NCBI RefSeq assembly: GCF_009932475.1
Contig: NZ_BJOV01000002.1
Span: 372,001 to 436,000 of the forward strand
Length of the DNA: 64,000 nucleotides
Origin: Gordonia spumicola
Lineage (GTDB): Bacteria > Actinomycetota > Actinomycetes > Mycobacteriales > Mycobacteriaceae
Direction: 5' to 3'
The notes beneath the pieces are model-generated. The model had not been told where the DNA came from. It worked only from the letters and a program-made list of their open reading frames with translations, and ran no database searches. Position 1 is the stretch's first letter. Every line of letters begins with the position of its first letter. This document shows positions 45,391-63,593 of the stretch, piece after piece. The position numbers and the translations under genes were made by a program.

Positions 45391-46164
45391 GTGGCGAATG
45401 TGCTGGACCTTGAGACCTGGCTGCGCGAGCAGTGCGCTGAGTACCGATTCGAAGTCGGCGGCGTCTATCAGGTTGACGGAACCCACTCCTACCCGCTCGT
45501 CGCGGACAGCGCCGAGGACCTTCGTGCGCAGCTCGACGCCGGCGGCCACCTGCTTCCACTCCCCAAGGAGTCGGCCGCGCTAGCGAACGTCCTCGAGGTC
45601 AGTATCGTCGAGTTCCTGCAGCACCGGATCAAGAACCTCGGCGACCGTGCGGGCGAAAATCAGGGAACGGAACGCGGCTACCCCGACCTGGAGATCTTCG
45701 GTGAGGTCTTCGGCGGCGGGTTCCATGCCGTGGACATCAAGGCCGCTCGACGCGCGATGAGCACCAAGGGCCACGCGCTCAACTCCACGCAGAGCGCCAT
45801 CACGCTCTACACCGGGAACACCTACTTCAGGCACTCCAACCTCAAATACCCAGGCACCTTGCGTCCGTTCGAGGAGTACAAGTCCCACCTCGACATCCTC
45901 CTGATCTACACACTCGACCTCGACAGCCGAGAGCGCGTCCGCGATCTCGAGCTGATCGTTCAGCAGCCATGGAAGATCGCGAGCCGGCAACGATCGTCGA
46001 CGACACGCGAGTACATCGGCGCGGTGAAGAACATCGACGCCCTCCGAAGCGGGAACGGTGCGTTCGAGACCGAGGAAGAGTTCTACAAGTACTGGCGGGC
46101 GTTCAAGTTCAACATCGCGCCGATCACCGTCAAGCTGCTCGAGAAGGGCGCGAAGGCGGACTGA
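45391..46164 (+). CDS. Type II restriction endonuclease, EcoRV family
   Basis: 257 aa from GTG 45391 (EcoRV is 245 aa). From memory of EcoRV, the match runs most of the length: an early GGVYQVDGTHSYPL block; the PD-(D/E)xK centre GYPDLEIF...AVDIKAAR (D99, D115, K117, matching Asp74, Asp90 and Lys92 of EcoRV); NLKYPGTLRPFEEYKSH, like VYPFDQYIAH; WKIAS, like WVIAG; and FETEEEFYKYWRAF, like FDSEDEFLDYWRNY. It cuts DNA that lacks protection by the methyltransferase 47 bp downstream. The site is not certain to be GATATC because the partner methyltransferase is a cytosine-C5 enzyme. Confidence 0.85.
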   Translation: MANVLDLETWLREQCAEYRFEVGGVYQVDGTHSYPLVADSAEDLRAQLDAGGHLLPLPKESAALANVLEVSIVEFLQHRIKNLGDRAGENQGTERGYPDLEIFGEVFGGGFHAVDIKAARRAMSTKGHALNSTQSAITLYTGNTYFRHSNLKYPGTLRPFEEYKSHLDILLIYTLDLDSRERVRDLELIVQQPWKIASRQRSSTTREYIGAVKNIDALRSGNGAFETEEEFYKYWRAFKFNIAPITVKLLEKGAKAD

Positions 46165-46211
46165 CCTGCGCAGTCCGTTCAATCGTCAGTGGCTCGTGCC
46201 ATGCTTACACC

Positions 46212-47288
46212 ATGGCAAGTACGGACGGTGTCGCAATCTCTCTGTTCTCCGGCGCGGGTGGTCTCGACCTCGGTGCTGAGGCTGCTGGGTTCAAGGTGCG
46301 AGCGGCGGTCGAGCGCGACCGTGACGCCTCACTGACCATGGAGAAGAACTTCGACACCCTCGCGTCACCGGTGATCCAGAAGGACATTCTGGACACACCC
46401 ACGAGCGAGATCCTGAAGGCAGCCGGGCTCCGCTCCGGCCAGCGACCGGATCTCCTCATCGGGGGCCCGCCGTGCACCCCGTTCTCCAAGAGCGGCTTCT
46501 GGCTTGAGTGGAAACGTCAGGGCCTCGACCCTGACGCGTCGCTTCTGCAGGCGTACACCCGGGTCCTCAAGGATGCACAACCCCGCGCCTTCGTCCTCGA
46601 GAACGTGTACGCGCTGACGTACAACAACAAGGCTTCGCGGCCCGCGCTGACGCGTCTCCTCAAGGAGATCGACGAGGCTGGCTACAACTTCAACATGAAA
46701 GTCCTCAACGCAGCCGACTACGGAGTCCCGCAGGCTCGGCCTCGGCTGTTCATCATCGGAGCACCGAAGGGCAAGCCGACGCCCGTGCACCCCGACGCCA
46801 CCCACGGCGGCAAGTGGGAACGCCGAGCGACAGGTCTCATCGAGGGCCGTCCGCATGTCACAGCGGGCGAGGCGCTCGAAGGTCTCATCACCGATCCTGA
46901 GCGCGAGGAGAAGATCGGAGGCAAGTACGGCCACCTCCTCCCTGGGATCCCGCCGGGTGACAACTACCTCCACTACACCGAGCGGCGCGAGCATCCGGAC
47001 CCGCAGTTCGAGTGGCGGAGCCGGTACTGGTCGTTCCTGCTCAAGCTCGACCCGAATAGGCCGTCGCCGACGATCCAGGCGCAGCCAGGACCGAACATCG
47101 GGCCGTTCCACTGGGAGAACCGCCGCCTGCGTACCGCCGAGGTCAAGCGCCTGTTCACGTTCCCCGACGAGTTCGAGCTGGTCGGCACCCGAGGGAGCGT
47201 TCAGGCGCAGTTGGGCAACTCGGTCCCACCGCTGCTCGGGCAGAAGGTGCTTGAGAACGTCCGCATCGCTCTCGGGGGCGCACGCTGA
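46212..47288 (+). CDS. DNA cytosine-C5 methyltransferase
   Basis: 358 aa. Motif I is ISLFSGAGGLDLG, motif IV with the catalytic Cys is GGPPCTPFSKSG, motif VI ENVYAL, motif VIII QARPRLFIIGAP, and motif X QLGNSVPP. A target-recognition region lies between VIII and IX (about 210-290). It follows the EcoRV-like nuclease in the same direction and is its expected protective partner. No controller protein gene is seen. Confidence 0.92.
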   Translation: MASTDGVAISLFSGAGGLDLGAEAAGFKVRAAVERDRDASLTMEKNFDTLASPVIQKDILDTPTSEILKAAGLRSGQRPDLLIGGPPCTPFSKSGFWLEWKRQGLDPDASLLQAYTRVLKDAQPRAFVLENVYALTYNNKASRPALTRLLKEIDEAGYNFNMKVLNAADYGVPQARPRLFIIGAPKGKPTPVHPDATHGGKWERRATGLIEGRPHVTAGEALEGLITDPEREEKIGGKYGHLLPGIPPGDNYLHYTERREHPDPQFEWRSRYWSFLLKLDPNRPSPTIQAQPGPNIGPFHWENRRLRTAEVKRLFTFPDEFELVGTRGSVQAQLGNSVPPLLGQKVLENVRIALGGAR

Positions 47289-47566: not shown

Positions 47567-48484
47567 GTGGCAAGCAACAACCCGAAATGGTCGTGGTGGC
47601 ATCAGTACGAAGGGCCGGACCAATACAGACGACGTGAGAACCTACGTGCGATCTGGGATCTCCACTCCAACTACGGCGATGACGTTCCGTGGCTATGGCG
47701 CGGACAGGCCAATGCAACCTACGACCTGACTCCGGGGATGCACACCCGGATCGCGCGTGCCGGAACTCTGACTGACGACGCGGTCGTAGCGGAGACCGAG
47801 CGCCTCCTCCAAGTCGCGCGTCACGCCTGTCTGGACATACATGAGGGCGTTCGGTTGCCCGACATGGCACTCCTCGCTCGCCTGCAGCATCATTTTGCAG
47901 CGACACCGCTGCTCGATGTCTCGCTCGATCCACTTGTGGGCCTGTATATGTCGACCGTCGATCGGGATGGTGTTCACTCAGACCAAGACGGCGCAGTGTT
48001 CGCGATCAAGAAGCCGTCCCACGCGATCTCAGACTTTGATAGTCGCAGCTTCCGCGATGTGTATGAGTCGCTGCCGTCGGCTGGGGGGATCGCGATGTAC
48101 TCCGCGCCCGACGTGAGTGACCGGCTTCGGATTCAGCGAGGTCACTTCCTGCTCGGGCGGGTGGATGACACGGATGACCGGGTCACAATCCCCCTCAGTA
48201 TTGATAGAGGTAAGGTGCAAGATTCTTGGATCTGGGCCCGCCTGGGTGCGCGCGGTAAGAAGGGGCCGGTGCCGCCCGCGTCGACGGATATTGCTGTGTT
48301 CCGAACTGTAGGTAAATTCAAGCCCGACCTTGAGACATGGCTCGAGAATCGGTCCGGCCTCACACGCGACTTTGTGTACCCAACAGCATGGAATCAGCCG
48401 CACCTGGATCGATTTGCTCAAGCGCACTCACGGACCGCACCGGCCACGACCAGCGTTCAGCGCCCTGATTCAGCGGAGGCCTGA
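47567..48484 (+). CDS. FRG-domain protein, possible defence gene
   Basis: 305 aa from GTG 47567. The FRG domain covers about residues 20-130, with the hallmark WLWRGQANATYDLTPGMHTR and the later block LLARLQHHFAATPLLDVSLDPL. The C-terminal half has no recognised motif. FRG proteins are of unknown biochemistry and are often found in defence-rich or mobile regions. Here it follows a restriction-modification pair, beside an attachment site. Lower GC and less biased codons than the sugar operon suggest acquisition. Confidence 0.82.
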   Translation: MASNNPKWSWWHQYEGPDQYRRRENLRAIWDLHSNYGDDVPWLWRGQANATYDLTPGMHTRIARAGTLTDDAVVAETERLLQVARHACLDIHEGVRLPDMALLARLQHHFAATPLLDVSLDPLVGLYMSTVDRDGVHSDQDGAVFAIKKPSHAISDFDSRSFRDVYESLPSAGGIAMYSAPDVSDRLRIQRGHFLLGRVDDTDDRVTIPLSIDRGKVQDSWIWARLGARGKKGPVPPASTDIAVFRTVGKFKPDLETWLENRSGLTRDFVYPTAWNQPHLDRFAQAHSRTAPATTSVQRPDSAEA

Positions 48485-48992: not shown

Positions 48993-49320
48993 CTCGGGGT
49001 GAGGTCGCGGGCTCCTTGTCGTCGCGGCCAACGGCAGGCTTCGGTCGCCGGCGCGACGACCTCCTCCATCCGCATCCGCGCCCACGCGACGAGACGAGGT
49101 CGACATTGCTGCGAGCGAGCGCGACGCTTCGCACGCCGCGCGCACGGTCAGATCTAAGGACGCGATGTGCAGGCGCGGCAGTCAACTCCGATTGAGGGGG
49201 GGAGAGTCAGCCGATGGCCGCGACACGCCCATGGGTCATTCCAAGACGAATCGGTCAATCTGCGTCGTCGGGCGGTTCCCGGGAACATTCCCGCGTTCCT
49301 AGAAACCACCCCTGACCTGC

Positions 49321-49380
49321 TGCGGAAGCGGAGGGATTTGAACCCCCGGTGGTTTTACCCACGCTCGCTTTCAAGGCGAG
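49321..49380 (-). tRNA. 3' fragment of tRNA-Ser(UGA): attachment-site copy, not a functional tRNA
   Basis: The minus strand reads an anticodon arm CTCGC-CTTGAAA-GCGAG (anticodon TGA), a long variable arm GTGG-GTAAAA-CCAC typical of Ser, a T arm GGGGG-TTCAAAT-CCCTC, an acceptor strand CGCTTCC, and GCA. The matching 5' acceptor strand GGAAGCG and the D arm are missing upstream. This is what integration into a tRNA gene leaves at one end: chromosome on the 3' side (below 49.32 kb), element on the 5' side (above 49.38 kb). The intact gene should lie at the other end, beyond 64 kb. Confidence 0.8.
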
Positions 49381-49534
49381 TGCATACAGGGTTTTACCAG
49401 GTCATGAGTTTTCTAAAGAGTAATGGTCAGACAAGGTTTCTGCAGGTTTGAGCAGGGGCGACAGGGAATGTGTCAACTCTGTGTCAACTAGCCCGCCAGG
49501 GTGCCGGCCGATGGCAGGCGCCCGCGATCACCAG

Positions 49535-53496: not shown

Positions 53497-54435
53497 CTAA
53501 ATCCTCGCAGCCACATCCGAATCACCGGTCACCGGAGCTGCGTTCGGCGTCAACCAATCACTGTCTGGACGCGCTACGAGCCGTGCATTGGTGTAGGCCA
53601 TCTCCAGTGTGAGAACGGTGTGACCTCTGTAGGCCCGCTCACCGACGGCGGACACCACTAGTGCCAGGTCTGCGCTTCCATCGCCTGTGAGATCCAGCGG
53701 CATCAGGAATTGCGCCCCGACTTCCCCGAACTTCGGATACCACTGCGGGATGACCAGTTTGTGGTTGCGACGCACCCGTCGCAGCGTCAGGTTCACCGCC
53801 GAATCGAGTGCTTGCTTTGCCCGCAGGGGCTGTGCCGCAAGATCCGCAGGGAAGCGATCTAGGTTGTCATTGATGATGTGGTCGTAGGCGAGTTTCAACT
53901 CCCGCCTCCAGTCGTAGATCAGCTCAGATGCCGAGGTCACGTACTCAGCCATCTGCGGCGGATCAGGGAAATGCCTGAGGAGATCGCGGTCTGATTCGCT
54001 GGCCCACCGCAAAAAGAACCAGTGCTGCGCGTTCTCGTGGCGGTTCCGCTGAAAAAGCCCGAAGACCTCCTCCGCGTGCGGCGTAAGTAGACCTGTGTTC
54101 CACGCCGCCCACTCCCCATCGGGGGTGACAACGATCTTGTCCTCCATGACCAGCCGTTTATGTGTATACCGCAAGAAGCTGTCCAGAATCGGTAGAGGCC
54201 GCCCCGTATCGTCTGGACCAGCCCAGTCCTCGTGCTCAGCCATTGACGCCAGCGACTCCAAGGCATCCGCCCACGCCAGCCGTCCGAGTTCGGGCCCCTC
54301 GGCCTCCTCCGTACCACGATATGAAAAGAAGGCGAACGACCTCAAGCGATCATCGTGCCCTGCGGTCACCGGTCCAATACCACTGCCTGCACTGTGAAGC
54401 TGGGCCACATCCCCTGGGGTTGGAACTGTGCTCAT
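53497..54435 (-). CDS. DUF3825-domain protein
   Basis: 312 aa from ATG 54435 (TTG at 54438 is the alternative). Matches the DUF3825 pattern: LRSFAFFSYRG, LESLASMAEHEDW, ILDSFLRYTHKRLVMEDKIV, AAWNTGLLTPHAEEVFGLF, then an ELKLAYDHIINDNLDRFP block. The C-terminal third (FLMPLDLTGDGSADLALVVS) resembles the domain that often follows. Function unknown; members turn up in bacterial accessory regions. Single gene on the minus strand between two plus-strand operons. Confidence 0.75.
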   Translation of the reverse strand: MSTVPTPGDVAQLHSAGSGIGPVTAGHDDRLRSFAFFSYRGTEEAEGPELGRLAWADALESLASMAEHEDWAGPDDTGRPLPILDSFLRYTHKRLVMEDKIVVTPDGEWAAWNTGLLTPHAEEVFGLFQRNRHENAQHWFFLRWASESDRDLLRHFPDPPQMAEYVTSASELIYDWRRELKLAYDHIINDNLDRFPADLAAQPLRAKQALDSAVNLTLRRVRRNHKLVIPQWYPKFGEVGAQFLMPLDLTGDGSADLALVVSAVGERAYRGHTVLTLEMAYTNARLVARPDSDWLTPNAAPVTGDSDVAARI

Positions 54436-54594
54436 CAACCGACACTAGCCGACGACGCGAGCCTGATCCGGGGAAATCGGAAGCGTTCATCAGTACGGGT
54501 TTCAAACACCCGTTCGATCATCTGGGGTACTCCCAAATGGACACTTCCCAAGTGCCGCATATTGCGTCAATTTAGGGTGGGGTTTCGATCGTTA

Positions 54595-54638
54595 TTGACA
54601 TCTGTCAACACATGTTATAGACTTACATTGACAGATAT
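54595..54638 (+). promoter_or_regulatory. Promoter with overlapping operator for the recombinase/nuclease operon
   Basis: A perfect -35 TTGACA (54595-54600), 15 nt, then TATAGA (54616-54621). The -35 is the left arm of a dyad TTGACA-TC-TGTCAA (54595-54608), and TTGACAGATA recurs at 54628 on the downstream side. A repressor binding these sites would cover the whole promoter. The spacer is shorter than the ideal 17 bp. Confidence 0.6.
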
Positions 54639-54677
54639 CGAGTGCCGCGACAGACGCGGGCGATGACGGGAGACCTG

Positions 54678-55109
54678 ATGGCAACGCTGAACGAACTCAT
54701 TGCTGAAGTGGTTGACGAAGCCGAGGCCCAAGCCCGAGCGACTTGGGCTCCCGTCGATGATCGGTCCCTCGATGAGTCCATCGCATGGGCCCGCAACGAG
54801 GCGGCTTACGGCTGTTTCGCATCGGCCGGGTACGGGCTCGCTGAGCTGACCTGGGTCGACCCCGACCAGCGCGACTACTGGGACAACACCCCCTCGCCGG
54901 CAGAGCTGCGCAAACTTCGCCGCGAGGCCACCGTTGCCGCGAAAGCGCATGCGCGGGAACTGCTGACCGAGCCCGTGGTCGACGAATTCGACAGCTTCTT
55001 TCGCTTCATGGAGGGCTACCAGGCATTCGAGGAGGAGCGCGGTCCCGCGCCCAAGGCGCTCACCGCAGAGGTCGAGCGGCTGATCGCGGCGTGGTTGGAA
55101 GCGGCATGA
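54678..55109 (+). CDS. Unknown helical protein, first gene of the recombinase/nuclease operon
   Basis: 143 aa from ATG 54678, preceded by GGGAG (ATG 54663 is an alternative). Predicted almost all-helical: LNELIAEVVDEAEAQARATW, then SLDESIAWARNEAAYGCFAS and a C-terminal ALTAEVERLIAAWLEAA. No known domain. Its stop overlaps the recombinase start (ATGA), so the two are translationally coupled. Confidence 0.7.
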   Translation: MATLNELIAEVVDEAEAQARATWAPVDDRSLDESIAWARNEAAYGCFASAGYGLAELTWVDPDQRDYWDNTPSPAELRKLRREATVAAKAHARELLTEPVVDEFDSFFRFMEGYQAFEEERGPAPKALTAEVERLIAAWLEAA

Positions 55110-55690
55110 CCGGCGAGCGCGTCGGCTACGTCCGGGTCAGCACGGCCGAGCAGAACGAGAGCAGGCAGCTCGACGGTGTCGAACTGGACGAGGTCTTCGT
55201 AGACAAGGCCAGCGGCCGCAACCGTGACCGGCCCAAGCTCGACGCCCTCATCAAGTACGTCCGCAAGGGCGACACTGTGCTCGTACACAGCCTCGACCGC
55301 CTGGCACGCAACGTCACCGACCTGCAAGCCATCATCGCCGAGTTGAACAGCAAGGGCGTGCGCGTCGAGGTCACTACGCAGGGCCTGGTGTTCACCGGTG
55401 ACGACAACCCGATGACGAAGCTGCTACTCCAGATGCTCGGTGCCGTCGCCGAGTTCGAGCTGGCCGCCATCCGCGAACGACAAGCCGAGGGCATTGCCAA
55501 GGCCAAGGCCGCGGGCAAGTATGCGGGGCGCAAGGTCGCGCTGACGCCCGAGCAGGTCGCCGAGATAGCCCGACGCCATGCCGGAGGTGCCGGGGAGGGC
55601 ATCACGTCGCTGGCCAAGGAATTCGGCGTCAGTCGGCAGACGGTCTACAAGTACCTCGCTGAGGAGTCGACAGTTAAGGATCAGCAATGA
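55106..55690 (+). CDS. Serine recombinase, resolvase/invertase family
   Basis: 194 aa, the usual resolvase size. Catalytic Ser in GYVRVSTAEQNESRQL (Ser11 region), then LDRLARN, the regulatory helix and EFELAAIRERQAEGI, and a C-terminal HTH of Hin type (ITSLAKEFGVSRQTVYKYL). It could resolve element dimers, invert DNA or act as an accessory recombinase. It is too short to be a large serine integrase. Overlaps both neighbours by 4 nt. Confidence 0.9.
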   Translation: MTGERVGYVRVSTAEQNESRQLDGVELDEVFVDKASGRNRDRPKLDALIKYVRKGDTVLVHSLDRLARNVTDLQAIIAELNSKGVRVEVTTQGLVFTGDDNPMTKLLLQMLGAVAEFELAAIRERQAEGIAKAKAAGKYAGRKVALTPEQVAEIARRHAGGAGEGITSLAKEFGVSRQTVYKYLAEESTVKDQQ

Positions 55691-57474
55691 CCGCCACCCC
55701 ATGCGCCATCGACGGGTGCGCTGCTCCCGCGGCGTTCCGCGCCTATAAACGCCCTGCCTGGTGCCAGCCCCACATCTCCGAGATCCTGCGCACAGCAGAC
55801 CTCGAACCGCTCGAACCGGTAGCCAAGCGGGACTCGTGGACGCTGATGCGCTGTCTTTCCTGTGGCTGCGAGCAGCACCTGCGCCTGCAGTACGTCCTCG
55901 ACAAGCTCCCGATGAAGTCCGACGAGCCGATCTGCCAGGCCTGTCACTGGCGAGAGTGGGCCAAGTGGGCACGCTCGATGTCCGGCGAAGGGTTGACCCC
56001 TGTCGACCTGGACGAGGTACGCGCCATCGCCGAGGCCAACCATTTCGACTACCTGGGCCCGCTCACCGACCCATCCCTGCCCGACGACCCCCATCGGACC
56101 CGCTGCCGCGACTGCGGCAAGATCAGCGCTGAGCGCGTCGGCGACATGGGATGGGGCTGCACCTGCCGACGCAATCGCAAGCGCCAGAGCACACCAGCCA
56201 AGTCGCCGACAGCGAACCTGCTGCGCACCTCCGACAACGAGGCACTGTCGTGGTGGGACCACGACGCCAATACCGAGTCCCTTTGGGAGACTGCGAAGCT
56301 CAAGTCACCGAAAGCGGCTGCCTGGAAGTGTCCGGAGTGCGGTCACCGCTTCACCGCCGTCATCCGCGACATGACCAAACAGCCGACTTGTCCGCCCTGC
56401 GCCGAACGTCGCCAGCACGAATACCACGAGTGGCTCGCCTCGTTCGAGGGCAAGACCGTCGCCGACGTTCCTGAACTCCTCGAAGCCTGGGATGACGAAA
56501 TGCACCCACGGTTCGCCCTGGTCCTCGACGGCACGTTCACGACGAACGGCTGGGGCCCGTACTCCCGCGGTTTCCAACCACGGGCGATCTATCGCTTCAA
56601 GTGCCCGAACGGGCACCACCCGCGGATCTCACCGACCTCCTTCCTGGAACGAGGCTGCCCGGCGTGCCGCGGCAACGCGACCCGCGACCGGAACAACACG
56701 GGCAACGAGCCCCGCTTGAGCCCCGAGATCGCCTCCCAGTGGCATCCAGACCGCAACGGCGCCTGGACCGCCGCGCAGGCCAGCCCCGATTCACGACGCC
56801 TGGCCTGGTGGCGAGACCCGGTGTGCGGCCACGAGTGGCAGCAGACCCCGCGTGAGCGCGACAAGTACACGCGTCGACGGTGTCCTGACTGCGACACCAT
56901 TCTCGACAGCCTCGCCTGGCACTACCCGGAGATCGCCGCCGGGTGGGCACCAGAGAATCCGATCACGCCGTGGCAGGTCCGTCCCACCGACACTGAGCAC
57001 GTCGTTCACTGGATCTGCGACACTGACGCCGCTCACCATTGGACAGGAACCCCCGCGTCACTGGTCAACGGCACCGGCTGCCCGGAGTGCCGGACGTCCG
57101 GCAAGTCTCGCGTCGAGCTGGACCACCTCAACGCCGCCCGAGACTTGTTCGGTTCCGCGGCCTCCGGCATCCGGGTCCACAGCGACGCATTCGTACGACG
57201 CGCATCGTGGACCGTCGACATCCTGATCACGCTCTCCGGGGACCGGAGGGTGGCCGTCGAGTACGACGGGTCGTACTGGCACGCCGACAAGGTCGAGTTG
57301 GACACCGAGAAGTCCCTTGACCTGCTCGCCGAGGGCATCGACGTCGTCCGACTTCGTGAGGCCCCGCTCGCGACGTTGGCGATCGACGACCCCAGATACC
57401 ACGAGATCGCCGTCTACAGTTCCGCACCTGACCCCGTCAGTGTCATGAAAAAGGCCCGCGATCTGATTCGCTGA
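55687..57474 (+). CDS. Multi zinc-ribbon protein with C-terminal Vsr-like PD-(D/E)XK nuclease domain
   Basis: 595 aa, ATG overlapping the recombinase stop. Residues about 1-470 hold a series of Cys4-type ribbons: CLSC/CQAC, CRDC/CTC, CPEC/CPPC, a KCPNGH/CPAC unit, VCGHEW/CPDC and ICDTDAAHHW/CPEC. This is the DUF4379-like zinc-ribbon pattern with repeated WxP and W(H/A)P spacers. The C-terminal about 120 residues form a restriction-like fold: Glu in SRVELDHL, Asp in WTVDILI, VAVEYDGSYWH, then GIDVVRLRE, as in Vsr-like nucleases. The array probably recognises a nucleic acid and the tail cuts it. Tight coupling to a recombinase is notable. Confidence 0.8.
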   Translation: MTATPCAIDGCAAPAAFRAYKRPAWCQPHISEILRTADLEPLEPVAKRDSWTLMRCLSCGCEQHLRLQYVLDKLPMKSDEPICQACHWREWAKWARSMSGEGLTPVDLDEVRAIAEANHFDYLGPLTDPSLPDDPHRTRCRDCGKISAERVGDMGWGCTCRRNRKRQSTPAKSPTANLLRTSDNEALSWWDHDANTESLWETAKLKSPKAAAWKCPECGHRFTAVIRDMTKQPTCPPCAERRQHEYHEWLASFEGKTVADVPELLEAWDDEMHPRFALVLDGTFTTNGWGPYSRGFQPRAIYRFKCPNGHHPRISPTSFLERGCPACRGNATRDRNNTGNEPRLSPEIASQWHPDRNGAWTAAQASPDSRRLAWWRDPVCGHEWQQTPRERDKYTRRRCPDCDTILDSLAWHYPEIAAGWAPENPITPWQVRPTDTEHVVHWICDTDAAHHWTGTPASLVNGTGCPECRTSGKSRVELDHLNAARDLFGSAASGIRVHSDAFVRRASWTVDILITLSGDRRVAVEYDGSYWHADKVELDTEKSLDLLAEGIDVVRLREAPLATLAIDDPRYHEIAVYSSAPDPVSVMKKARDLIR

Positions 57475-57528
57475 CATCTCACCAGTGCGAGGACGAACCC
57501 CAGAAGGCGCGGCCAAGGTGGCTGCCCT

Positions 57529-58566
57529 CTAGCCGCCAGTGACCTTATCGTCCTTGACCCGCATGACATCGACCAGTTCGACGACTTCCCGAACGAACTC
57601 GTCTCGGAGGTATCGCTGAAAGCCCCTCGCGAGCTGCTCAGGTGTCTCAGAACGGCCGACGACCTCCACCACGGCCACCTCGTCCGAATCGCCAGCCGTC
57701 ACATGGGACCAACGTGAGAACGGGCTCACGCGCCGAAGGTACTTCCCGATCCAATCGTCGATCCTCTCGACACGAGCCTTGTCGATCGCGCTTGGTCCGC
57801 GCTCCGGCTCATAGAACTCGATGTTCTCCAGCTCACCGACGAGGCCACGGTCCTCATCAACTTCAGCGATACCGAGCACTACCGACACCCACGGGGTGAA
57901 CAGACGCACAGACTCCGGCCTTGTCAGCTCCGAGTCAGGCGCGTCGAGCTTCTGGCGCAATTCGTTCGCGGCTTCGAAGGACGGCGCGAATGCCCGTGCC
58001 GTCTGCACCTGTTGGAAATCCACTACATCCTCGTGAACCGGTTCCGCATGCAAAGACTCACGGACGTCAATAGTGATTGTCCAATCGATCTCGACTAGAC
58101 GCTGCAACATGTCCTTGGTGAACCGGGTCTCGCCCGACGACACGGTCTCAGCGAGGACCGTACGACCGACGCGGTGCAGCTCATCTGTGGCCATCGAGAT
58201 GCGCTTAAGCATCGCAGCACGTTCATTCACTGCGGAAAAGCGTGCCGCGTCGTGATCATCAAGCGGCAGGAGTCTCTCTAAGACCTGCATCCGCGTGTCG
58301 AACGCTTCGGCGTGGCGTTCCAGTGCTCGGGACTGCAGCGGGGCCACGGGCCCGATAACGAGATCGTCGGTGGCCATCGCCAACGCCGACATGTCCTGCA
58401 GAAGATGCTCGATCTGGTTGTAGCGGAGGTCTCTTTCTGCAGTGTCGTTGCCCGATCGCGCCACCTTGATCGCGTCTCGGCCAAGCCAGGTCGCCAGCAC
58501 CACCGCGACAACAGCGCTGACCGCAGTGACGATGTCCGCAACATCTACGAAATGCTCCCAGCTCAC
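57529..58566 (-). CDS. Membrane-anchored protein of unknown function
   Basis: 345 aa from GTG 58566 (a TTG at 58608 gives 14 more residues). One N-terminal membrane segment (about 10-30, DIVTAVSAVVAVVLATWLG) is followed by a long soluble, mostly helical cytoplasmic part (DLRYNQIEHLLQDMSALAMA, RFTKDMLQRLVEIDWTITID). No catalytic motif is recognisable. Proteins with this outline occur in accessory regions. It is convergent with the zinc-ribbon nuclease gene (54-bp gap). Confidence 0.72.
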   Translation of the reverse strand: MSWEHFVDVADIVTAVSAVVAVVLATWLGRDAIKVARSGNDTAERDLRYNQIEHLLQDMSALAMATDDLVIGPVAPLQSRALERHAEAFDTRMQVLERLLPLDDHDAARFSAVNERAAMLKRISMATDELHRVGRTVLAETVSSGETRFTKDMLQRLVEIDWTITIDVRESLHAEPVHEDVVDFQQVQTARAFAPSFEAANELRQKLDAPDSELTRPESVRLFTPWVSVVLGIAEVDEDRGLVGELENIEFYEPERGPSAIDKARVERIDDWIGKYLRRVSPFSRWSHVTAGDSDEVAVVEVVGRSETPEQLARGFQRYLRDEFVREVVELVDVMRVKDDKVTGG

Positions 58567-58657
58567 GGACAGACAATAACGCTGCGCGTGGTTGTGGCGG
58601 GATTCCAACAGGCATCAGCGGACAAGAACACCGAGGCCTGACCCCTCCCCAACAGCA

Positions 58658-61905: not shown

Positions 61906-62148
61906 ATGCAAAAACTCGACGCACGCCAGATTGTGCCGCTGACCAGCGAGGAACTGAATCAGCTGAGAAAAGATTCCAATACCCAAGAAATTACGCCGGG
62001 ACTCTATTCCCGCGCCCTATTGCTGCACGCGATCGACAATATGACTGCCGATGAAATCACCGACGCGGTCGCGGTCGCCAAGACCGAAGCCGCCGACCGA
62101 CTGTCCGCCGGTGCCCGCGAGGCCGTCAGCCACCGATGGGAGAAGTGA
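61906..62148 (+). CDS. Small ribbon-helix-helix-like protein
   Basis: 80 aa from ATG 61906 (RBS AAGGA). The pattern ARQIVPLTSEELNQLRKD, then TPGLYSRALLLHAID, fits a strand-helix-helix DNA-binding unit like MobC-type relaxosome accessory proteins. A helical C-terminal tail follows. 2 bp before the coupling-protein gene, so the two form one operon; a role at the transfer origin is plausible. Confidence 0.6.
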   Translation: MQKLDARQIVPLTSEELNQLRKDSNTQEITPGLYSRALLLHAIDNMTADEITDAVAVAKTEAADRLSAGAREAVSHRWEK

Positions 62149-62150
62149 GC

Positions 62151-63593
62151 ATGTCCAAGACGACAGCCGTGAAACGCCGCGTGATCGACTCTCCGTATGC
62201 CGGAGTGTTAGGGAAAACTCCGTTCGACCACGGGCAGCCACACACGCTGATCAGCGGAAGAACGGGCTCAGGAAAATCAAGAACCACAATTTGCCCAGCG
62301 ATTCTGCGGTGGAATCGCCGCAGCGTCGTCGCCGTGAGCTGTAAAAGCGACGTTGCCGAACTCACCGCGGCGATCAGGGCGCAGCACGGCAAGGTCTATC
62401 TGATGGACCTGAGCGGCAAAGTCCCCGACGACTCGAAGATCGGCGTACCGACGATCCGGGTCTCGTCCGATCCCACGCTAGGCATCGTCTCCGACGACAC
62501 CGCACTCGACGTGGCCAGTCTGCTGATGGACGTCGGCGACCTCGGCACCGGTGACGGCAGCTCCGGCGGCAACGACAAGACCTGGAAGACCCTGGCCCGC
62601 AGGCCTTTGGCTGCGATCCTGCGTGCCGCTGCCTCCTACAAGGACCCCGAGACCGGCGCGACCGTGCCGGGCGGCGGCATCGACTGGGCGCTGGATGCCG
62701 GCGATGTCATGGGGAAGCCGTCCGAGGACGGCGATCCCGAGTACCACGCACCGTCGTGGGTCACCGCCGCCAATCGGTGCGCCGTGACCGGCTCGCGTCA
62801 CGGCCAGATGCTGATGAACGCTCTCGACATGGACCCTGGCCAGCGCGACTCGATCCGCCTGAACATCTACAACGCGCTTTCCACATGGGCCCGCGACGAG
62901 GTCTCCCGCCCAGCCGGTGACACCGTGCCCTTCCACCCGTCCATGCTCGAGGAGCCGGGCGCGACGCTGTACATCATCAGCCCGGACAGTGGCGACGCGG
63001 CACCTGCGGCCACGGCCGCTCTCACCGCCATCGTCGAGCACTGGCGGCGGCACGAGCTGCCGCACTTGCTCGCAGTGATCGACGAGCTCCCGAGCACCTG
63101 CCCACTGCCCAAATTGGCCAACTGGGTCGGAACCCTCCGAGGTGAAGGTGTGCGCATCGTGGCCGCCGTTCAGGCAACCAGCCAATTCGCTCCCCGATGG
63201 GGACGCGAAGGCTTGCAGATCCTGCGCGATCTGTTCCCGGCCGTGCTCATCCTGCCCGGCGCACCGGAGCCCGAGTTGCTGGACCAGGCCATCTGGATGA
63301 CGCCGTCGTCCGAGCGTGTGACGGCCAGCATCGATGCCTCGGGCAACGTCTCCCACTCCCGTGACAGCGCCGCAACGGTGACCAAGGCCGATCTGGTGCC
63401 GCCGCCCGGATACGGACGCCTTCTCATCCTCGGCCAGATGGGCCGCTTGGTGCGCCTGCCCGACATCACCGCCACCGACTTGCTCGATCGCAAACCCGCG
63501 GCACCGGCACAGACGCCGCCCCGGCCGGCCGAACAGCATGGCAGGCCGGAACCGACCCTCGGCTCCCGGATCAAGACCTGGATGACCGAGTAG
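62151..63593 (+). CDS. VirD4/TraG-type coupling ATPase lacking membrane segments
   Basis: 480 aa from ATG 62151. Walker A SGRTGSGKS (residues about 35-43), Walker B LLAVIDEL (about 305-312), and the TraG-like stretch LRGEGVRIVAAVQATSQF. A C-terminal Pro-rich tail follows. Coupling proteins bring the relaxase-DNA complex to the secretion channel. This one has no N-terminal membrane helices, so it would need membrane partners, for which the facing five-gene operon is the natural candidate. Confidence 0.85.
   Translation: MSKTTAVKRRVIDSPYAGVLGKTPFDHGQPHTLISGRTGSGKSRTTICPAILRWNRRSVVAVSCKSDVAELTAAIRAQHGKVYLMDLSGKVPDDSKIGVPTIRVSSDPTLGIVSDDTALDVASLLMDVGDLGTGDGSSGGNDKTWKTLARRPLAAILRAAASYKDPETGATVPGGGIDWALDAGDVMGKPSEDGDPEYHAPSWVTAANRCAVTGSRHGQMLMNALDMDPGQRDSIRLNIYNALSTWARDEVSRPAGDTVPFHPSMLEEPGATLYIISPDSGDAAPAATAALTAIVEHWRRHELPHLLAVIDELPSTCPLPKLANWVGTLRGEGVRIVAAVQATSQFAPRWGREGLQILRDLFPAVLILPGAPEPELLDQAIWMTPSSERVTASIDASGNVSHSRDSAATVTKADLVPPPGYGRLLILGQMGRLVRLPDITATDLLDRKPAAPAQTPPRPAEQHGRPEPTLGSRIKTWMTE

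Follow-up and report, generated by a model that had tools for sequence, protein, structure and literature searches.

A predicted zinc-array endonuclease carried beside the resolvase of a tRNA-Ser integrative element in Gordonia spumicola

Is a serine recombinase that is translationally coupled to a zinc-rich nuclease one half of a single machine, or do the two genes only travel together? The question is raised by a three-gene operon (54595..57474) in a 64,000-nucleotide stretch of the Gordonia spumicola genome (contig NZ_BJOV01000002.1, positions 372,001 to 436,000), the whole of which is referred to as the window. A first-pass annotation had taken the operon for a self-contained recombinase-nuclease system. 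We read it instead, with roughly even confidence, as the res-like/resolvase module of a 23.5-kb tRNA-Ser element with two passenger genes, the larger of which encodes a likely free-standing, homing-type site-specific endonuclease that is probably self-moving and is not a working partner of the resolvase.

The three genes lie on the forward strand and, as first annotated, overlap by 4 nucleotides: the TGA stop of the first gene (55107-55109) forms an ATGA with the recombinase start at 55106, and a second ATGA joins the TGA stop of the recombinase gene (55688-55690) to the ATG of the large gene at 55687. The proposal that the operon is on a mobile element was also borne out. Past the right-hand end of the window, a tyrosine integrase gene (Phage_integrase, 9e-19) adjoins tRNA-Ser, and a 66-bp direct, att-like repeat at the far left (49320..49385) is identical at 65 of 66 bp to the tRNA-Ser end at window coordinate 72795 (L195:9796-9861). 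With its two copies separated by 23,475 bp, the repeat places the operon inside an integrative element in tRNA-Ser. The element also encodes a TraG/VirD4-type coupling protein (62136..63593, forward strand; Pfam T4SS-DNA_transf, 5e-13), the one component of a mating apparatus identified in it. Adjoining the element on the left, outside the repeat, are genes for a C5-cytosine methylase and an FRG-domain protein (45969-47288 and 47567-48484).

The recombinase half of the operon is ordinary. The middle gene (55106..55690, forward strand) encodes a small serine resolvase of 194 amino acids (aa), with a resolvase catalytic domain and a C-terminal helix-turn-helix (Pfam Resolvase, 6.8e-38; HTH_7, 1.3e-11), in agreement with its initial description as resolvase-sized. 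Near it lies a conserved, non-coding, res-like region (54513..54664, forward strand) that includes the blocks TGGGGTACTCCC, GTCAA..TAGGGT, and TTGACATCTGTCAA..TTGACA and carries repeated, inverted GACA/TGTC half-sites in the alignment. The region is 87.5% identical over 152 bp in genome G282 (locus L156), 75% identical in G243 (L158), and 73% identical over 150 bp on contig C5 of the same G. spumicola genome (L192), each time near a resolvase gene; it is partly kept in G090 (L160), and just 49 bp align on G. spumicola contig C3 (L193). A TTGACA-TC-TGTCAA dyad (54595-54608) overlaps the promoter TTGACA-N17-TAGACT (54595..54623, forward strand), the sole sigma-70-like promoter found in 54400-57700 (shuffles: mean 0.4, standard deviation 0.5), and the 17-nt spacing between the hexamers is retained in L156, L158, L192, and L160. 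The dyad-plus-promoter pattern, which was defined after inspecting the sequences, is present upstream of 10 of 23 resolvase genes (200 shuffles: mean 0.0, largest 1) and was not found in front of the remaining 13, which mostly encode more distant resolvases.

Small serine resolvases of the Tn3/plasmid type act on a three-subsite res. The window copy resembles them in its Resolvase and HTH_7 domains and in the conserved, dyad-bearing promoter region of approximately 150 bp in front, whereas it differs in having other genes between the res-like region and the resolvase gene, and behind the latter. The stretch 54513-54664 thus looks like a res region with an autoregulated promoter: the resolvase would bind the 150-bp region, resolve multimers of the element, and repress its own promoter. 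Of the earlier description, the dyad overlapping the promoter was confirmed and found to be conserved, whereas the tight repression deduced from it is better read as likely autoregulation of the resolvase at its own res region. Contigs C5 and C3 of the same genome (G000) encode related resolvases, 89% and 56% identical to that of the window, respectively, and also hold patches resembling the backbone of the window element.

The immediate surroundings of this module vary. The resolvase gene directly follows the res-like region in L158 and L160; a differing gene is interposed in the window, L192, and L193, each time with a 4-nt overlap with the resolvase start; and in L156 there are two other genes, the last of which ends one base before that start. 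Behind the resolvase gene, the element backbone picks up directly in L156, where the window has the nuclease gene and a further gene (57529-58608). With differing genes on both sides of the resolvase, both adjoining slots therefore take changing cargo. The first gene of the operon (54678..55109, forward strand; 143 aa, with an alternative longer GTG start at 54642) occupies the slot between the res-like region and the resolvase. Its ATG at 54678 is the more likely start, judging from a length equal to that of the database copy P0121. A search of 5.8 billion proteins retrieved its own copy alone, and nothing matched in plasmids or in the 58 further genomes searched within the genus; by these searches it is an ORFan, another slot gene.

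The nuclease gene occurs once in the G. spumicola genome and had no match in G282, G243, or G090. Its family was sampled in two ways: a protein search, which scored the best 7,994 candidates by shared words, returned at least 415 relatives at E ≤ 0.001, and an alignment scan across genome contigs detected 132 relatives, of which 78 loci were kept. After removal of duplicates, the neighbourhood set comprised 63 loci, the window's included, drawn from plasmids, from genomic and viral contigs, and from whole genomes. The family is widespread in Actinobacteria. No neighbour cluster stands beside the nuclease in more than 6 of the 63 loci, and a serine recombinase was detected within approximately 7 kb in 6 of the 62 non-window loci, always downstream. 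Most of the sampled relatives had no serine recombinase detected nearby, and the nuclease and resolvase are therefore probably fellow passengers, not one machine.

In 5 of these 62 loci (L005, L010, L041, L047, and L087) a serine recombinase lies within approximately 1 kb, taken as a raw count; together with the two ATGA overlaps, this would suit a single recombination or element-targeting machine assembled by translational coupling. We consider such a machine highly improbable, since all five have the recombinase on the downstream side, in mixed orientations, and none has the gene order of the window (a comparison of relatives beyond the five closest, P0002-P0006, which are 64-77% identical). 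These recombinases are not of one kind: those of L005 and L047 are 36% identical, and L010 has a large recombinase. L156, L158, L160, L192, and L193 retain the resolvase and lack the nuclease. The occurrence of the resolvase and its res-like region without the nuclease, and of a recombinase near so few of the nuclease relatives, does not sustain the self-contained system first proposed. Shortened copies or fragments of the nuclease, which suggest turnover and decay, were seen in Williamsia maris (L082), Gordonia zhenghanii (L083), and Corynebacterium (L061/L062).

The large gene (55687..57474, forward strand) encodes a predicted zinc-array endonuclease of 595 aa. On the same strand, an N-terminal zinc module (residues 1-161; 55687..56169) is followed by four predicted treble-clef, DUF4379-type zinc modules (approximately residues 205-469; 56299..57093) and by a C-terminal EDxHD/Vsr-type PD-(D/E)XK nuclease domain (residues 470-595; 57094..57471). 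The array contains three Pfam stretches of DUF4379 (PF14311; 86.9 bits against a gathering cut-off of 24.5), the best at residues 348-403, and Zn_ribbon_8 at 214-240, and its zinc-ligand columns are invariant or nearly so in alignment A1. The first-pass annotation was right about zinc ribbons, which it put at about six of Cys4 type; the pattern predicts seven sites, three in the N-terminal domain and four in the array. The protein contains the motifs VDILI and VEYDGSYWH, and the Vsr-like nuclease fold suggested for its C-terminus is supported by a match to the EDxHD homing endonuclease I-Bth0305I (PDB 3r3p) in both structure alignment and profile comparison.

The catalytic-type residues do not vary among any of the 26 alignment rows. 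Such conservation would be needless in a protein that binds nucleic acid, for example RNA, structurally and without cutting, its nuclease-like end being a scaffold as in the mitoribosomal DUF4379 modules. That alternative is highly improbable in our view, even though, among solved structures, the whole protein has its best sequence match in a mitoribosome factor from a trypanosome (6sga_Fd, E 4.1e-5). The mitoribosomal proteins mt-SAF33 and mS66 do share zinc modules of the DUF4379 type with the window protein, and we know of no nuclease role for them.

As a homing-type enzyme, the protein would bind a long DNA site through its zinc modules and cut there with its C-terminal domain, and repair of the cut would copy the gene or remove a rival allele. 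The ATGA overlaps would allow low-level expression of the nuclease from the resolvase promoter. Movement of the gene was assessed in 11 pairs of relatives with at least 78% identity and enough flank. In 9 of the 11, which are partly non-independent and have no control set of other accessory genes beside them, DNA similarity ends within 50 bp of the stop codon (the exceptions extend +202 and +9,994 bp), and therefore the gene seems to move largely alone; 5 of the 11 pairs have no further likeness in their flanks at all, and upstream of the nuclease the similarity often extends further, up to 1,399 bp. Arthrobacter plasmids have the same left gene near a resolvase with the nuclease in between (L005) or without it (L202); the L005 resolvase more closely resembles the one on a third plasmid (L203), and the region is therefore a mosaic and not a clean empty site. 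In Rhodococcus, L205 has a different gene at the position that the nuclease and one more gene take up in L004.

The make-up of the pair set is one of several points that weigh against a homing-type enzyme. The relatives have different flanks at different loci, unlike a classical homing gene, which occupies one target, and the loci compared yielded no clean pair of empty and occupied alleles in which a cut site could be identified. Rfam at gathering scores detected no intron and no other RNA in 40000-64000. I-Bth0305I ties with other PD-(D/E)XK nucleases (Bax1, Can2) in structure alignment, and Foldseek alone scores it at E 0.33; zinc binding, DNA binding, and cleavage by the large protein are predictions. 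Finally, a type III restriction-modification (R-M) pair adjoins the nuclease in 5 of the 62 non-window loci, all from Corynebacterium and in two arrangements.

The R-M neighbours bear on the main rival, which is tentative though clearly possible: a single-gene defence enzyme, carried as cargo by elements, whose zinc array would recognise sites in phage or plasmid DNA entering the cell and direct cleavage there. ResIII and N6_N4_Mtase were confirmed by Pfam in both of the R-M loci tested (L028 and L062), and the nuclease copy is shortened in 2 of the 5 (L061 and L062). The nuclease fold of the C-terminus would suit defence as well, whereas the PADLOC 2.0.0 models of known anti-phage systems do not fit the large protein (best Cas10c, E 0.17). 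Among the defence models listed for 136 near neighbours were type IIG, CBASS parts, Type IV Cas, DRT, and DrmD, yet Gabija, Cas1, and RT were among those listed for 140 far neighbours too; as each set comes from the 25 families listed, we make no claim of enrichment. No recurring host-protecting partner appeared among the loci compared, and we favour the homing-type over the defensive role.

The architecture, which had at first not been recognised as described, turns out to be partly known. DUF4379-like (CapR/DUF4379-like) modules together with an EDxHD/Vsr-like domain are reported in homing genes that belong to phage group II introns (PMC12350094, NAR 2025). These genes and I-Bth0305I share with the window family a C-terminal EDxHD-type domain behind several zinc-type modules, whereas the window family occurs as free-standing genes in bacterial chromosomes, in plasmids, and in integrative elements and has an extra N-terminal zinc module, and no intron was found around the window copy. 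New here are the actinobacterial variant with a shared N-terminal module and the cargo slot beside the resolvase. An apparent new recombinase-nuclease machine is thereby replaced by a testable picture in which the resolvase loci of actinobacterial elements serve as cargo slots, and zinc-array endonucleases emerge as a family that is widespread and scarcely annotated. Each of its proteins would be a natural long-site cutter if the homing-type reading holds.

The N-terminal module of approximately 160 residues has a confident structure model and no clear match in the PDB. The same zinc module is encoded in 14 actinobacterial loci (L007, L068, L070, L071, L073, L074, L076-L081, L084, and L086), at 47-57% identity to the window copy (13 rows aligned). 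In these DEDDh-exonuclease/BRCT-like proteins, unlike in the window nuclease, the module is C-terminal, preceded by an RNase_T exonuclease (in all 3 tested) and by a DNA ligase A BRCT-like stretch (L079, the single one tested), and no EDxHD domain was seen. We suggest, as an unlikely idea, that the module is an undescribed reader of DNA ends or lesions that Actinobacteria use on two unrelated nucleases, one a mobile EDxHD cutter and the other a DEDDh-exonuclease/BRCT trimmer. The cutter would have taken over a repair-targeting module of its host, and it and the host exonuclease would come together at shared breaks and bias repair in favour of copying the gene of the element. The shared module offers a way into an apparently uncharacterised actinobacterial DNA-repair protein.

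Two further observations concern the neighbourhoods. In plasmid pRHL2 of R. jostii RHA1 (L002), two copies of the nuclease family are separated by approximately 3 kb; compared with the pRHL3 copy (L004), the first has 67% identity, and the second shares 92% identical DNA. Beside the operon, a DUF3825 gene (53497-54438) has a counterpart in G038 (L161) with 83% identical DNA over 944 bp, the sole part of 41-64 kb of the window that aligns there.
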